From Paracoccaceae bacterium (lineage in GTDB: Bacteria; Pseudomonadota; Alphaproteobacteria; Rhodobacterales; Rhodobacteraceae): DNA of 32,306 nucleotides. Within the stretch, counting starts at the first letter, position 1, and each line of letters begins with the position of its first letter. Where the stretch lies: contig JABSSD010000014.1 in assembly GCA_013214575.1 (NCBI GenBank), positions 1-32,306 on the forward strand. Direction: 5' to 3'. The notes below the pieces were generated by a model that was not told the origin of the DNA, did no database searches, and saw nothing but the letters and a program-made list of their open reading frames with translations. Both the position numbers and the translations under genes were made by a program. Shown in pieces: positions 17,591 through 22,528 of the stretch.

Positions 17591-18151
17591 CTAGTTGCCT
17601 CGCAGTAAAGCAGCCACACCGGTCCGAGCCACTTCGACCAGACCCAGCGGCCGCATCAGATCGGCAAAGGCGTCGATCTTGTCAGGCGCGCCGGTGATTT
17701 CAAACACAAAGCTGGTCAGGGTGCTGTCGACAACATTGGCGCGAAAAATATCGGCCAAGCGCAGGGCCTCGACCCGCTTTTCGCCTTCCCCAGCCACCTT
17801 GAAGATGGCCAGTTCCCGCTCCACTGTGGTGCCTTCTACGGTCAGGTCATGCACCTCACGCACCGTTACAATGCGGCCCAGCTGGGCTTTGATCTGCTCG
17901 ATAACCTGGGGAGTGCCCTTGGTGACAATGGTGATGCGGCTCAGGTGGCCGGTATGGTCCACTTCGGCGACGGTCAGGCTTTCGATGTTGTAACCACGGC
18001 CGGCGAACAAGCCGATGACACGGGCCAGGACACCGGGTTCGTTTTCGACCAAAACCGCAAGCGTGTGCCGCTCCTGCACGTCCGAAAACGTCGGGCGCAG
18101 ATTATAGGCGGAATGCCGGGTCGAGCCTTTTTTGATGTGTAGGGCAGACAT
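17591..18151 (-). CDS. ilvH: acetolactate synthase small (regulatory) subunit
   Basis: The 186-residue regulatory subunit activates acetolactate synthase and makes it sensitive to valine feedback. An ACT domain runs from about residue 28 to 100 (HTLAVLVENEPGVLARVIGLFAGRGYNIESL), and the C-terminal ALS_ss_C domain ends near residue 180 (GLVEVARTGVAALLRG). A 25-residue N-terminal tail precedes the ACT domain. AAGGGA upstream supports ATG 18151. It lies 78 bp after ilvB on the same strand, and that gap contains two perfect palindromes. Confidence 0.95.
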   Translation of the reverse strand: MSALHIKKGSTRHSAYNLRPTFSDVQERHTLAVLVENEPGVLARVIGLFAGRGYNIESLTVAEVDHTGHLSRITIVTKGTPQVIEQIKAQLGRIVTVREVHDLTVEGTTVERELAIFKVAGEGEKRVEALRLADIFRANVVDSTLTSFVFEITGAPDKIDAFADLMRPLGLVEVARTGVAALLRGN

Positions 18152-18229: not shown

Positions 18230-19981
18230 TTAAACCAGCACCGCACCGCCGGCCTGAATGGCGCCTTCGGTATCGGCCTCACCCAGTAGCATTTCATTAT
18301 GTGCCTTGCCCGATGGGATCATCGGGAAGCAGTTTTCGTGTTTGGTCACCAGGCAGTCAAAAATCACCGGGCCGTCATACTCGAGCATCTCCATGATGGC
18401 GTCATCCAGATCAGCAGGGTCCGAGCAGCGGATGCCCTTGGCGCCAAAGGCCTCGGCCAGTTTGACAAAGTCGGGCAGGGATTCGGACCAGGACTGCGAA
18501 TAGCGCGATCCGTGCAGCAATTCCTGCCACTGGCGGACCATGCCCAGGCGTTCGTTATTGAGGATGAACTGTTTCACCGGCAGCTTATACTGCATGGCGG
18601 TGCCCATTTCCTGCATGTTCATCAGCCACGAGGCCTCGCCCGCGACGTTGATCACCAGCGCGTCTGGATGCGCCACCTGCACCCCGATCGAGGCGGGGAA
18701 GCCATAGCCCATGGTGCCCAAGCCACCCGATGTCATCCAGCGATTGGGATCCTCAAAATTCAGGTACTGGGCGGCCCACATCTGGTGCTGGCCCACCTCG
18801 GTGGTGATGTAACGGTCGTATTTCTTGGTCAGGGCCTCCAACCGCTGCAAAGCGTATTGTGGCTTGATGATCTTTTCATCCTTGGCAAACTTCAGGCAAT
18901 CCACCTTGCGCCATTCATCAATCTGACGATTCCAGGACACCACCGCCTCGGTATTGGTCTTGCGGCCGCGTGATTTCCAGACCTTCAGCAGGTCTTCGAG
19001 CACATGGCCAACGTCGCCGACAATTGGAATATCAATGCGAACAATCTTGTTGATCGACGAGGGGTCGATGTCGATGTGCGCCTTGGTGGAGTTCGGCGAG
19101 AAGGAGCTCAGAACACCGGTGATCCGGTCGTCAAAACGCGCCCCGATGTTGATCATCAGATCGCAGTCGTGCATCGCCATGTTGGCCTCGTACAGCCCGT
19201 GCATCCCCAGCATCCCCAGCCAATTTTTGCCCGAGGCCGGATAGGCGCCCAGCCCCATCAGGGTGGAGGTGATTGGAAAGCCGGTGGCGTCGACCAATTC
19301 ACGCAACAGCTGGCCGGCTGCGGGACCCGAGTTAATGACCCCGCCGCCGGTATAGAACACCGGGCGTTCGGCTTTTTCCAGGGCTTCGACCAGTTCGGTG
19401 ATCGAGGTCAGGTCGCCCTTGACCGATGGCTGGTAATGGGACGCCGAGGGTTTGGGGCCGCAGTAGGTGCCAGTGGCAAACTGCACGTCTTTGGGGATGT
19501 CGATCAGGACAGGTCCGGGGCGGCCAGAGGTGGCGACATGAAAGGCCTCGTGCAATACACTCGCCAGTTTTTCGGTGTCCTTGACCAGCCAGTTATGCTT
19601 GGTGCAGGGGCGGGTGATGCCAATGGTGTCGGCCTCTTGAAAGGCATCGGATCCGATCATGAAACTGGGGACTTGCCCGGTCAGAACAATGATCGGGATC
19701 GAATCCAGCAGCGCATCGGTCAAGCCGGTCACTGCGTTGGTGGCGCCGGGGCCCGAGGTGACCAGGGCGACACCCGGCTTGCCGGTGGAGCGGGCATAGC
19801 CCTCGGCCGCATGGACCGCGCCCTGTTCGTGGCGCACCAGAATGTGCTGGATGTCATTTTGCTGAAAAATTGCGTCATAGATCGGTAGGACAGCACCGCC
19901 GGGGTATCCAAATACTGTGTCCACACCCTGATCCTTCAGAGCCTGAATCACCATTTTTGCACCGGTCATCTCACGTGTCAT
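18230..19981 (-). CDS. ilvB: acetolactate synthase large (catalytic) subunit
   Basis: This 583-residue ThDP- and FAD-dependent enzyme makes acetolactate or acetohydroxybutyrate in Val/Leu/Ile synthesis. Three domains are visible. The Pyr domain has VRHEQGAVHAAEGYARSTGK, with the catalytic Glu. The central domain runs about 195-330. The PP domain has NVAGEASWLMNMQEMG and ILNNERLGMVRQWQ. The ThDP-binding motif reads GEAS where GDGS or GDAS is usual, a conservative Asp-to-Glu change at a metal ligand; ancestral or functional status is unclear. ATG 19981 has GGAG eight bases upstream. Longer in-frame starts (20029, 20062) fall in the attenuator and are unlikely. Expression is probably set by the upstream attenuator. 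ilvH follows. Confidence 0.96.
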   Translation of the reverse strand: MTREMTGAKMVIQALKDQGVDTVFGYPGGAVLPIYDAIFQQNDIQHILVRHEQGAVHAAEGYARSTGKPGVALVTSGPGATNAVTGLTDALLDSIPIIVLTGQVPSFMIGSDAFQEADTIGITRPCTKHNWLVKDTEKLASVLHEAFHVATSGRPGPVLIDIPKDVQFATGTYCGPKPSASHYQPSVKGDLTSITELVEALEKAERPVFYTGGGVINSGPAAGQLLRELVDATGFPITSTLMGLGAYPASGKNWLGMLGMHGLYEANMAMHDCDLMINIGARFDDRITGVLSSFSPNSTKAHIDIDPSSINKIVRIDIPIVGDVGHVLEDLLKVWKSRGRKTNTEAVVSWNRQIDEWRKVDCLKFAKDEKIIKPQYALQRLEALTKKYDRYITTEVGQHQMWAAQYLNFEDPNRWMTSGGLGTMGYGFPASIGVQVAHPDALVINVAGEASWLMNMQEMGTAMQYKLPVKQFILNNERLGMVRQWQELLHGSRYSQSWSESLPDFVKLAEAFGAKGIRCSDPADLDDAIMEMLEYDGPVIFDCLVTKHENCFPMIPSGKAHNEMLLGEADTEGAIQAGGAVLV

Positions 19982-20029
19982 CTGCTTTGCTCCATTGACG
20001 TCGTCTGTGTCTTCAAATTCATTGCGCAT

Positions 20030-20058
20030 AAAAAAAGCCCCCGATTTTTGTCGGAGGC
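20030..20058 (-). terminator. attenuator terminator upstream of ilvB
   Basis: On the minus strand an 8-bp stem (arms 20051-20058 and 20037-20044, one G-U pair) with loop CAAAAA is followed by seven T residues (20030-20036). It lies after the leader peptide and 49 bp before the ilvB start codon. Its 5' arm overlaps the antiterminator segment (20057-20065), so the two hairpins exclude each other. Confidence 0.9.
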
Positions 20059-20099
20059 GCATGGGTTCGAAAATGGTTTACCGTTACCGGCCCATGCGC
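20057..20099 (-). promoter_or_regulatory. antiterminator hairpin of ilvB attenuator
   Basis: On the minus strand GCGCATGGG (20099-20091), at the end of the leader ORF, is perfectly complementary to CCCATGCGC (20065-20057). The pairing could extend by GGA (20107-20105) with TCC (20055-20053) across a small internal loop, which would invade the terminator's 5' arm. A ribosome at the leader stop codon would cover the first segment and let the terminator form. A ribosome stalled on the Ile/Val/Leu codons would leave it free. Confidence 0.8.
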
Positions 20100-20131
20100 T
20101 TGGTTCCTACGATGATGACTAGGGTGATCAT
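20084..20131 (-). CDS. ilvB leader peptide (attenuator)
   Basis: The 15-codon frame encodes MITLVIIVGTKRMGR. Six of codons 2-8 specify Ile, Leu or Val, the end products of the pathway encoded just downstream. It has a good ribosome binding site (AAAGGAG) and starts about 23 bases from the inferred transcription start. Its stop lies 25 bases before the terminator's 5' arm. Branched-chain leader peptides are established for ilvBN and ilvGMEDA in enterobacteria, and I recall attenuation reported for Caulobacter ilvBN. This frame is far too well placed and biased to be chance. Confidence 0.92.
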   Translation of the reverse strand: MITLVIIVGTKRMGR

Positions 20132-20160
20132 TGTCCCTGGCTCCTTTTGCGTTGAAGGCG

Positions 20161-20189
20161 ACATTATGGAGGGTCGCCGGGGGCGTCAA
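20161..20189 (-). promoter_or_regulatory. sigma70-type promoter of ilvB leader
   Basis: On the minus strand TTGACG (20189-20184) and TAATGT (20166-20161) are separated by 17 bp. An overlapping CATAAT (20168-20163) at 15 bp is an alternative -10. The inferred start is near 20154, giving a leader of about 170 bases before ilvB. Confidence 0.75.
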
Positions 20190-20406: not shown

Positions 20407-21051
20407 CTACAGTCCGGCGCCGGTTCCCTGCAGCACCCCATGCTCCAGCGCATAGCGGGTCAGACCGGCGGTGGAACTGATGCCAAGTTTGCGCTTGATG
20501 TTTTTGCGGTGGGTCTCAACCGTGCGCACCGAGATATCAAGCACCAGAGCAACTTCTTTGTTGGACTTTCCCTGTGCCAGTTCCAGTAGAATGGTCTGTT
20601 CGCGGGTTGTCAGGGACTCGCGGGTGTTTCCGTCTTTTGGCTCCAGTGAGCCTTTTGCGCCGGTGCAGAGGTATTTCTTGCCCTGCATGACGGCGTCGAT
20701 GGCCAGCTTGATCTCGTCGGTGGGCACATCCTTGAGAATATAGCCCATGGCGCCATGGCTGAGAGCACTAGAGATGTATTCTGGGCTGTTATGCATTGTC
20801 AGGATCAGGATGCGCGTGGCTGGGGCCCGTTCCAGCAGGATCTCGGTGGCGCTGAGACCCCCGAGTTCGGGCATGTTCAAGTCCATCAGGATCACGTCCG
20901 GAGCCAGCTCCGCAGCGCGGTTGACGGCCTCTCGTCCGTTGTTCAATGTGCCGACAACTTCGATGTCGTCATAGGTCTCTAGGATGGATTGAATTCCCTC
21001 GGCGACCATCGGATGATCATCCACTATCAGCACGCGAATTGGTTTGGTCAT
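20407..21051 (-). CDS. NarL/FixJ-family response regulator
   Basis: The 214-residue protein has an N-terminal receiver domain with acidic pair Asp11-Asp12, phosphoacceptor Asp57 (ILMDLNMPE) and Lys107 (YILKDV). Its C-terminal LuxR-type HTH includes LTTREQTILLELAQGKSNKE and ISVRTVETHRKNIKRKLG. It should bind DNA when phosphorylated. ATG 21051 follows GGGGAA; an in-frame GTG at 21063 adds four residues. It lies 49 bp after the histidine kinase gene on the same strand, so the two form a cognate pair. The nearby divergent TRAP operon is the obvious candidate target. ilvB lies downstream on the same strand but has its own promoter. Confidence 0.92.
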   Translation of the reverse strand: MTKPIRVLIVDDHPMVAEGIQSILETYDDIEVVGTLNNGREAVNRAAELAPDVILMDLNMPELGGLSATEILLERAPATRILILTMHNSPEYISSALSHGAMGYILKDVPTDEIKLAIDAVMQGKKYLCTGAKGSLEPKDGNTRESLTTREQTILLELAQGKSNKEVALVLDISVRTVETHRKNIKRKLGISSTAGLTRYALEHGVLQGTGAGL

Positions 21052-21100
21052 CAGTTTCCCCACATAGATATGGCGCGATTCAGGTCCCGGATTCTCGGCG

Positions 21101-22528
21101 CTATTGCACCTGGCTGGAGTCGGTGCCGCCGCCGGGCGGCAGCAAGTGACTTAACGGCAGTCGGGCTTCGATCACCGTGCCGCCTTGGGAGCCACGTGAT
21201 GACAGAATGCGCAGGGTGCCGTCAAGCTGTTCGATCCGTTCCTGCATATTGCGCAGCCCGATGCCTGAGCCGCTGCGGTCCTGTTGCGGGGGTAAACCGG
21301 TGCCATTGTCGGTGATGCGCATGGTGGCCCCTTTGGCGTGGCCGCGCAGGTCCATAGTGACATGCGTGGCGTTGGCATGGCGTTCGATATTTGTCAGCGC
21401 CTCTTGGGCGATGCGATACAGCGCGATCTTGCTGTTCTGGTCCAGCCGGTTGCTGAAAACCACGGTGCTGAATTCGGTTTCGATACCAGTGCGGGCTGCA
21501 AAATCACTGGTCAGCGCCTTCAGCGCAGGTCCAAGGCCCAGATCGTCGAGCACACCGGGGCGCAGATCGCGGCTGATCCTGCGGACTTCGGAGATTGCGG
21601 TGCCCAGGTAGTCGAGCCCCTTGTCCAGCGGTGGCAGCACCCGGTCATGTTCGCCGCGGGCCATGCGGCGGCGCGCATTGTCCAGCGCAAAGCGCACCCC
21701 AACCAGGATCTGGCTGATCCCGTCATGCAATTCCCGCGCAACCCGGCCGCGCTCTTCTTCCTGTGCGTCGAACACCCGCTGTGTCAGCTCTTTCAGCTTG
21801 GCGTCCGCCAGCCGTCGTTCGCGGATGTTCAGCATCATCCCCGAGGCAAACACCACAATCAGCGCCATCAGGGCAATGGCGCCAATGTAGACAAAGGTGC
21901 GTTGCACCCGCGTCTTGACCTCGGCGCGGGCGGCGGCCACCGAGGCCAGCACATCGTCGATGAAAACCCCGGTGCCAACCGCCCATTGCCAATCCTGCAG
22001 GCCAACCACATAGGCCACCATCTGGGCGGATTCTCCGGTCGAGGGTTTTTGCCACATGAAGCTGTGCCAGCCCGCCCCCTGGCGCGCCAGCCGGATGAAT
22101 TCATCCACCACGGGCACCCCGTTTTCATCGGTCAGGCCGGCCCAGTTCTTATTGATGAACTCGGTCTGACGCGGGCTGACCAGATTGGTGCCATCATAGT
22201 CATAAACAAAGAAAAACCCGTCGGTTCCGTAGATCATCGCCGACAGGATCTGCGTCACTTGCGTTTTGGCGGCGGCGTCGTCGGGCTGGGCGCGGCCATA
22301 GATAAAGGAAAATCCATTGCGGGCCTGGGTGACATAGTTTCTCAGCTCCGCCTTCTTGGCCTCCAGCAACTGGTGTTCCAGCGCCTGTATTTCGCGCTCG
22401 GCCAGGGCGCGGGATTGATAGGCCACCAGAACCGCGATCGCCGTCACCGCGATGACCAGAGGTATTGTCGCCAGCAGGGACAGCTTCTGGGCGTAATTTG
22501 GACGAATGAGGGGACGGAGCAGGCGCAT
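21101..22528 (-). CDS. Cache-domain NarX-type sensor histidine kinase
   Basis: The 475-residue protein has a membrane span near 17-37 and a periplasmic single-Cache domain (about 45-195). Its core reads GTDGFFFVYDYDGTNLVSP and continues to QDWQWAVGTGVFIDDV. A second span (about 212-232) follows, then a HisKA_3 domain with phospho-acceptor His268 (RELHDGISQILVG), and a HATPase_c domain (ITDNGTG, GSGIGLRNMQERIE). This is the sCache_2 type, whose known ligands are mostly small carboxylates; that is family knowledge, not shown here. No strong ribosome binding site precedes ATG 22528. The gene diverges from the TRAP operon across 261 bp and precedes its response regulator. Confidence 0.92.
   Translation of the reverse strand: MRLLRPLIRPNYAQKLSLLATIPLVIAVTAIAVLVAYQSRALAEREIQALEHQLLEAKKAELRNYVTQARNGFSFIYGRAQPDDAAAKTQVTQILSAMIYGTDGFFFVYDYDGTNLVSPRQTEFINKNWAGLTDENGVPVVDEFIRLARQGAGWHSFMWQKPSTGESAQMVAYVVGLQDWQWAVGTGVFIDDVLASVAAARAEVKTRVQRTFVYIGAIALMALIVVFASGMMLNIRERRLADAKLKELTQRVFDAQEEERGRVARELHDGISQILVGVRFALDNARRRMARGEHDRVLPPLDKGLDYLGTAISEVRRISRDLRPGVLDDLGLGPALKALTSDFAARTGIETEFSTVVFSNRLDQNSKIALYRIAQEALTNIERHANATHVTMDLRGHAKGATMRITDNGTGLPPQQDRSGSGIGLRNMQERIEQLDGTLRILSSRGSQGGTVIEARLPLSHLLPPGGGTDSSQVQ

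Follow-up and report, generated by a model that had tools for sequence, protein, structure and literature searches.

The ilvBN locus and its upstream region

The window analysed here is the whole of a 32,306 nt stretch from a Paracoccaceae bacterium (assembly GCA_013214575.1, contig JABSSD010000014.1). On its minus strand lie ilvB and ilvN, the genes for the two subunits of acetolactate synthase, and upstream of ilvB lies an element that is very probably (a rough probability of 0.85) a ribosome-mediated transcription attenuator of ilvBN, sensing charged Leu-, Val- and Ile-tRNA. Three features of an attenuator are present: a short leader open reading frame (ORF) with a ribosome binding site upstream of the operon, codons for the amino acids of the pathway clustered at a fixed place (codons 4-8), and an intrinsic terminator between the leader and the first structural gene. 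The parts, their order, their spacing and their conservation can be read from the sequence, and from these we infer transcription, ribosome stalling and read-through. The parts are as follows.

20189-20184, minus strand: -35 box TTGACG of the presumed promoter (read directly)
20161-20168, minus strand: -10 region CATAATGT, register uncertain (read directly; similar by eye in many relatives)
20147-20141, minus strand: Shine-Dalgarno sequence of the leader, AAAGGAG (read directly; an AGGAG-like site was scored in relatives)
20131-20084, minus strand: leader ORF of 15 codons, MITLVIIVGTKRMGR (ATG 20131-20129, stop codon TAA 20086-20084)
20108-20122, minus strand: putative regulatory codons 4-8, Leu Val Ile Ile Val (Ile/Leu/Val conserved in 76 leaders)
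20099-20091, minus strand: 5' arm of stem P1, GCGCATGGG (complementary to the 3' arm; compensated variants in divergent members)
20081-20090, minus strand: hairpin P2, CCG-GUAA-CGG, with the stop codon in its loop (stop-in-loop count; the outer pair covaries)
20065-20057, minus strand: 3' arm of P1, CCCATGCGC (complementarity, alignment and covariation table)
20050-20055, minus strand: UCCGAC, able to pair with GUAGGA (20110-20105) when the ribosome is at codons 3-4
20030-20058, minus strand: intrinsic terminator, stem 20058-20037 followed by seven T (read directly; terminator search)
18230-19981, minus strand: ilvB, acetolactate synthase large subunit (NF006581, 1130 bits against a cut-off of 974)
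17591-18151, minus strand: ilvN, acetolactate synthase small subunit, 3' of ilvB (NF008864, 221 bits against a cut-off of 119)

The first-pass annotation, made from the sequence of the window, had listed the promoter, the Shine-Dalgarno sequence, the leader, the two P1 arms (as an antiterminator), the terminator and ilvB in this order on the minus strand, and a direct reading agrees with it; the geometry is conserved across the family. P1 is a stem of 9 bp, fully complementary as had been proposed, whose 5' arm is situated in leader codons 11-14 and which overlaps the terminator by two bases in the window leader. The terminator, with its seven T, has a stem of eight pairs, six of them G-C. One such terminator was found against 0.6 expected from shuffled sequences, so that the terminator alone, without its conservation, is not above chance.

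The start of ilvB was placed at ATG 19981, by direct reading and by a frame test. An alternative start at ATG 20062, within the P1 arm, was rejected, as it shows no preferred reading frame with respect to ilvB (21/30/24 among the 75 rows that hold the motif, window included). The closest relatives of the IlvB protein derive from Ruegeria, Leisingera and other Rhodobacteraceae. Just 5' of the attenuator, the minus strand at 20407-22528 encodes a LuxR-type response regulator (20407-21063) together with a cache-domain histidine kinase. No match to Rfam at gathering scores was obtained in the window.

Conservation of the element upstream of ilvB

Eighty ilvB loci, selected by IlvB similarity, were fetched. 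Seventy-five of them could be aligned with the window, and the resulting alignment of 76 rows (A1) bears out the expectation that the leader ORF and its branched-chain codons would be conserved upstream of ilvB in relatives. The loci left out of A1 were L017, which is cut by a contig end, L059 and L067, which are divergent members of the element, and L033 and L054, in which no element was seen upstream of ilvB.

Of 149 same-family genomes searched with a covariance model (R1) built from A1, 126 matched at E <= 0.001. Twenty of the 23 model-negative genomes were listed and tested for ilvB, which was present in 19 (E <= 1e-200). By reading upstream, a divergent leader was found at 13 of these 19 ilvB loci (L297-L304, L306 and L308-L311). 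The divergent members keep the layout and have new P1 sequences, such as GCGCAGUCGC/GCGACUGCGC and GCGCAUCG/CGAUGCGC. Among same-family or related genomes, ilvB without a visible leader was observed at L296, L305, L307, L312-L314, L033 and L054; at L033 and L296 the TTGAC box is kept and the leader and terminator are absent. Genome G620 has two ilvB genes (L276 and L282), each with its own attenuator.

The neighbours of 50 model-positive places were checked (10 loci, 26 new loci and 14 weak or second matches). The element lies at ilvB in 46 of these and at a major facilitator superfamily (MFS) gene in four. In a wider class sample, 69 ilvB loci were fetched from 104 other ilvB-bearing genomes (35 were left unfetched, and L207 comprises only 208 bases). 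R1 matched two of the 69 at E <= 0.01, both of them same-family loci, and three further matches in the class sample were weaker (E 0.12-1.1). A generic search for at least four Ile/Leu/Val in six codons together with a terminator returned five of the 69, of which only the two same-family loci resemble the window leader.

Codon composition of the leader peptide

The leader had been described as 15 codons long with a run of Ile, Leu and Val codons, and this is borne out in the relatives, in 72 of 76 of which it has 15 codons. Leader starts were picked by a script from a combined Shine-Dalgarno and ATG score, with ties broken towards 15 codons; codon positions were counted from the stop codon and hence do not depend on the choice of start. 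Codons 4, 5, 6, 7 and 8 specify Ile, Leu or Val in 76, 75, 75, 72 and 73 of the 76 leaders (95-100%), against 13% or less at every other leader codon. The stop codon is TAA in 61 leaders, TGA in 15 and TAG in none. In every one of the 76, the spacer from stop codon to terminator measures 23-29 nt, with a median of 25.

The leaders prefer rare codons, namely CTA and GTA. CTA accounts for 49 of 93 leader Leu codons (53%, against 2.7% in the background) and GTA for 107 of 208 leader Val codons (51%, against 7.2%), the background being 384 ORFs taken mechanically from the same loci. According to the accessible portion of PMC1183508, the leucine codon of the Salmonella leu leader is CUA, its substitution by CUG makes the attenuator less sensitive, and CUA is favoured as a regulatory codon by theory and by experiments on leu leaders.

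A second site upstream of a Bcr/CflA efflux-family gene

The genome from which the window derives holds a second copy of the element (R1, 53.7 bits, E 4e-10; positions 1436-1535 of L128, on contig C114). This copy directly precedes an MFS gene (1561-2760) whose product passes the Bcr/CflA cut-off (TIGR00710, 218.9 against 200.9 bits), and its leader, MNPVNIVVVVSERCMVR, is valine-rich. An ORF for an IS110-family transposase is situated at 308-763 of the same contig.

In a class sample of 289 genomes, the MFS protein was found in 17 (E <= 1e-70), at 19 places. The element lies upstream of the MFS gene at 8 of the 13 places with at least 45% identity and was not seen at the 6 places in that sample with 40-42% identity. 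Named pump-linked cases are Roseobacter denitrificans pTB1, Phaeobacter piscinae, Leisingera caerulea and Burkholderia arboris. The last of these is a betaproteobacterium, and the occurrence of the element (L244, 543-637) with the pump gene in this species suggests that the two were transferred as a unit. Of the plasmid records that carry the pump gene, 28 in all, 19 were opened, and 15 of these contain the element; none was found at the pump gene in L230, L242, L243 or L245. In L230, from Agrobacterium tumefaciens pAt2, a related MFS gene is preceded by a thiamine pyrophosphate riboswitch (1327-1443) and not by an attenuator. Across 26 pump leaders, 22 have at least four Ile/Leu/Val in six codons, these residues being 112 Val, 30 Ile and 18 Leu.

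The Rfam family Atu_C8 (RF02502) reportedly stems from the Agrobacterium RNA sequencing of Wilms and colleagues. Three small RNAs of that study are likely 5' untranslated region leaders (PMC3738593, the accessible part of which does not show which ones). Atu_C8 was detected above its gathering score 5' of the MFS gene in all 11 Rhizobium/Phyllobacterium records opened and likewise in all six over-threshold genomes of the order of genome G107. Among these 17 leaders (L229, L231-L240, L089 and L152-L156), 16 encode a short Val/Ile/Leu peptide with its stop codon in a hairpin loop, as scored or read; the exception, L229, has a frame without a stop codon in the loop. The printed Atu_C8 consensus itself allows a reading as a leader, MIILVVGPRMGRAV, whose UAA falls in a hairpin loop. 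Atu_C8 shares with the window the order of leader ORF, stem (GCGCAUGGG/CCCAUGCGC), stop-in-loop hairpin and terminator. Its model aligns with the window weakly over its full length, at 25.4 bits, below the gathering score of 50. The Atu_C8 matches examined precede a Bcr/CflA MFS gene and not ilvB, and the gap between stem and terminator is 8 nt in the two measured. Atu_C8 appears to be an attenuator and not an independent small RNA.

Conservation and covariation of the stems

Paired positions were compared among the 76 leaders of A1, in which 98.4% of cells pair; the covariation score was reached by none of 500 shuffles. The outer pair of P2 varies yet keeps pairing, and three of the five pairs of the inner terminator stem change on both sides. 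P1 is nearly invariant in this set, where a two-sided change occurs at one of its nine pairs; it is in divergent members that its sequence differs. The prediction that both the P1 and the terminator pairings would covary thus stands for the terminator (and for P2) and is not borne out for P1 within the 76. When divergent and pump-linked members were added, 8 of 17 pairs were changed on both sides and the score was again reached by none of 500 shuffles; the 33 rows of this extended set were chosen for divergence and not at random, and their alignment, having been fitted to the model, is biased in its favour. Sixteen rhizobial-type leaders show little variation in P1, and three of their six P2 pairs are changed on both sides, a number of two-sided pairs reached by 30 of 500 shuffles, and a score reached by none.

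The stop codon is located in the P2 loop in 72 of the 76 ilvB leaders (a GNRA loop in 67) and in 25 of the 26 pump leaders, a scoring that excluded the R. etli leader L229 (valine frame, no stop codon in the loop) and L239 (a near-copy of L237). L136 lacks the branched-chain run. Examples are CCG[GUAA]CGG, GGAUGG[UAUAG]CCAUCC, GAACCC[UGAUU]GGGUUC and GGGGC[UAG]GCCCC. As shuffles of the flanks give 0.39 for the ilvB leaders and 0.40 for the pump leaders, the stop-in-loop count is by itself evidence of moderate strength, and the variation in the stems weighs more. In the divergent ilvB leaders, where P1, P2 and the terminator were located by a script that allowed one mismatch, 11 of 13 have a stop-in-loop hairpin (this set had no shuffle control). 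The P1 of L303 and that of L301 are doubtful, P1 of L298 has a probability of 0.07-0.12, and no P1 was assigned in L308.

The phasing of P1 and terminator is free of gaps in all 76 close leaders, and the distance from the end of P1 to the terminator is -3 to +8 nt in the members measured. Of the 12 divergent ilvB members measured, 11 show no overlap between the two elements, and the same holds for the two rhizobial-type pump leaders measured, where the gap is 8 nt.

Observations that weigh against an attenuator

Several results count against the proposed attenuator. The promoter named in the first-pass annotation (TTGACG, 17 nt, TAATGT) is present, and its TTGAC is found 5' of the leader in all 76 rows; the -10 part is weak, as TAATGT (20166-20161) matches TATAAT at three of six positions and a -10 with at least four of six matches at 16-18 nt occurs in just 15 of the 76. 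A consensus promoter scan of the window did not include the ilvB leader promoter in its output. Loss of the leader from relatives that keep ilvB, which had been put forward as evidence against the proposal, is seen in a minority, with no leader visible at 6 of the 19 ilvB loci of model-negative same-family genomes; in one of the 20 model-negative genomes tested, ilvB itself was not matched. In the covariation analysis, sliding the pairing partner by -1 scores 0.073, against 0.069 observed, although only 46% of cells then pair, against 98%. The predicted probability of P2 is 0.08 in the window leader and 0.33 on average. The fold of the window leader is mildly better than that of shuffled sequences (z = -1.8, with 8 of 200 shuffles folding as well) and by itself is weak evidence; the element is above chance because it is conserved, in the 75 of 80 fetched relatives that could be aligned and the 126 of 149 genomes that match the model.

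The remaining results of this kind concern folding. In equilibrium (partition function) folds of the 76 leaders under a ribosome mask, the P1 core (0.97-0.99) and the terminator core (0.95-1.00) both form with stalls at codons 4-8. In folds of RNA cut before the 3' strand of the terminator, a proxy for cotranscriptional folding (L298, L301, L303, L306 and L308 left out), the stalled state sequesters on average 0.54, 0.37 and 0.13 of the terminator 5' strand in the 76 ilvB leaders at stall codons 4, 6 and 8, and 0.14 or less in 9 of 12 divergent or rhizobial-type members, for which a single ribosome position, with its edge at the base of P1, was used. The trp, thr, leu and his attenuators of Escherichia coli, by contrast, sequester 0.80-1.00.

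Proposed mode of action

When amino acids are ample, the leading ribosome would pass codons 4-8, reach the stop codon and cover the 5' arm of P1, and the downstream terminator would then end transcription. When branched-chain aminoacyl-tRNA is short, the ribosome would stall at codons 4-8, P1 would fold ahead of it, and RNA polymerase would read through into ilvB. Because P1 captures only part of the terminator strand, we suggest that it acts mainly by its position, setting the terminator directly against the stalled ribosome, against a rigid helix, or both. P1 is situated between codons 4-8 and the terminator, where it may park the stalled ribosome.

How P1 would prevent termination was considered in four ways. 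The first, to which we give rather less than even odds, is that P1, by shortening the RNA in between, brings a ribosome stalled at codons 4-8 to within about 27 nt of the terminator and that the ribosome itself then blocks hairpin closure, the terminator being functional when no ribosome is present. Codons 4-8 of a 15-codon leader end 20-8 nt before P1, and the terminator follows P1 at -3 to +8 nt. In E. coli, as far as the accessible text of PMC4824070 goes, a ribosome less than about 27 nt away represses a terminator, and the effect is abolished when translation is uncoupled; a ribosome at the stop codon of the present leaders, 23-29 nt from the terminator, would be near this limit. Such parking accounts for termination without translation even though P1 folds in ribosome-free RNA (core 0.91 on average in RNA from the start codon, without 5' untranslated region). 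On the other side, in the same portion of that source the 27 nt were fitted on linear RNA with another terminator, and repression persisted with a 17-nt spacer in one series but was absent with 18 nt in the other. In the literature, as far as it was accessible, no example was found of a helix bringing a ribosome near a terminator, and the spacing could have other roles.

The second is classical strand exclusion, in which P1 together with GUAGGA/UCCGAC would capture the terminator 5' strand while the 3' strand has yet to be transcribed; we think it rather less probable than not. In the window leader five of the seven terminator bases are held at stall codons 3-5, two at codons 6-7 and one at codon 8, so that at least five are free at codons 6-8. 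The window leader does better at early stalls because pairing is possible between GUAGGA, in codons 8-9, and the UCCGAC of the terminator; the UCC of this motif remains pairable with GGA when the stall is at codon 5. Codon 9 is GGA in 18 of the 19 leaders that have a CUCCG terminator and in 25 of the remaining 57, an association that its Fisher value of 1e-4 overstates, the leaders being related. In at least 75 of the 76 leaders P1 is able to pair the two bases that it shares with the terminator, and L309, L059 and L089 sequester 0.46-0.55 among the 12 divergent or rhizobial-type members. Against this, at equilibrium the shared positions favour the outer pairs of the terminator over those of P1 (about 0.7 against 0.3 at codons 4-7; 0.87 against 0.13 in the window), most divergent members sequester little and, like the two rhizobial-type pump leaders, have no overlap to exploit. 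In the stalled state of 13 other members (nine divergent ilvB leaders, L059, L067 and two of rhizobial type; L301, L303, L306 and L308 were left out) the terminator reaches at least 0.87 in 12 and P1 at least 0.88 in 12, L298 being the exception to both. By eye, no conserved protector hairpin between the 5' part of the leader and the P1 arm was seen, nor any conserved pairing of the rhizobial-type terminator with the leader, although L089 gave 0.46.

The two-base overlap of the hairpins had been taken as enough for a switch, a claim that in this form gains no support from these results. As P1 and the terminator mostly form together, unlike in the four E. coli attenuators, simple hairpin exclusion is doubtful as a sufficient account of the switch. 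In these calculations the classical reading stays open for early stalls (codons 3-5 in the window), and we infer that something beyond strand exclusion is required for antitermination, at the very least for stalls at codons 6-8 and in the majority of the divergent members.

The third, an unlikely one in our judgement, is that P1 abuts the terminator and sterically hinders the entry of its hairpin into the exit channel of RNA polymerase. The gap-free phasing in all 76 leaders and the short distances elsewhere are consistent with it; the eight free nucleotides in rhizobial-type leaders weaken a direct clash, and this mechanism predicts read-through without translation. Lastly, it is improbable that the terminated RNA or the peptide acts in trans like Sinorhizobium rnTrpL/peTrpL, with P1 as a target-binding sequence: P1 hardly changes where covariation could occur, Rfam lists the related Atu_C8 as a small RNA and peTrpL works in trans (PMC7298713, in its accessible part), but P1 is replaced in divergent members and the last leader residues vary in pump leaders.

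Comparison with known attenuators

Attenuation of ilvBN has been described in another alphaproteobacterium, Caulobacter crescentus (Tarleton 1994, as cited in the accessible part of PMC4117421). There too a leader with tandem Ile and Val codons is present, and ribosome pausing controls a rho-independent terminator. Amino-acid attenuators upstream of alphaproteobacterial ilvB and ilvIH were predicted by Vitreschak 2004 (as cited in the accessible parts of PMC1273637 and PMC2573895) and concern the same genes; R1, for its part, matched ilvB leaders only in the family of the window (2 of 69 ilvB loci of a class sample at E <= 0.01). The E. coli trp, thr, leu and his attenuators likewise have regulatory codons, a stop codon and a terminator before the first structural gene and differ in the sequestration described above. 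Within the same bacterial order, ribosome-mediated attenuation has also been proposed for the Rhodobacterales cysS upstream ORF motif uORFC-8-2, which has cysteine codons and precedes another gene (PMC8632094, as far as accessible). No literature was found on the element before a Bcr/CflA gene, or on ilvB attenuation in Rhodobacterales, among the hits listed in a search outside which subscription papers mostly lay.

Implications

The kind of attenuator described here is already known; its fold and its second site, before an efflux-pump gene, look new. It may tentatively be regarded as a distinct architecture, in which a stem enclosing a stop-in-loop hairpin parks the ribosome without competing with the terminator, shared by ilvB and Bcr/CflA leaders in Alphaproteobacteria and one Burkholderia record; this we think rather less probable than not. 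If so, the need for two mutually exclusive hairpins, as given in textbooks, would be questioned for attenuators, and many natural variants are available for testing. The data also suggest that an Rfam small RNA family is a coding attenuator of an efflux-family gene and that a tRNA-charging switch may control an exporter. The pump version would, if the proposal is true, switch on the exporter when valyl-tRNA is short or when ribosomes stall on valine runs, and a possible trigger would be an inhibitor of the supply or charging of branched-chain amino acids. For the Rhodobacterales, the control of branched-chain amino acid synthesis through ilvBN gains a testable footing.

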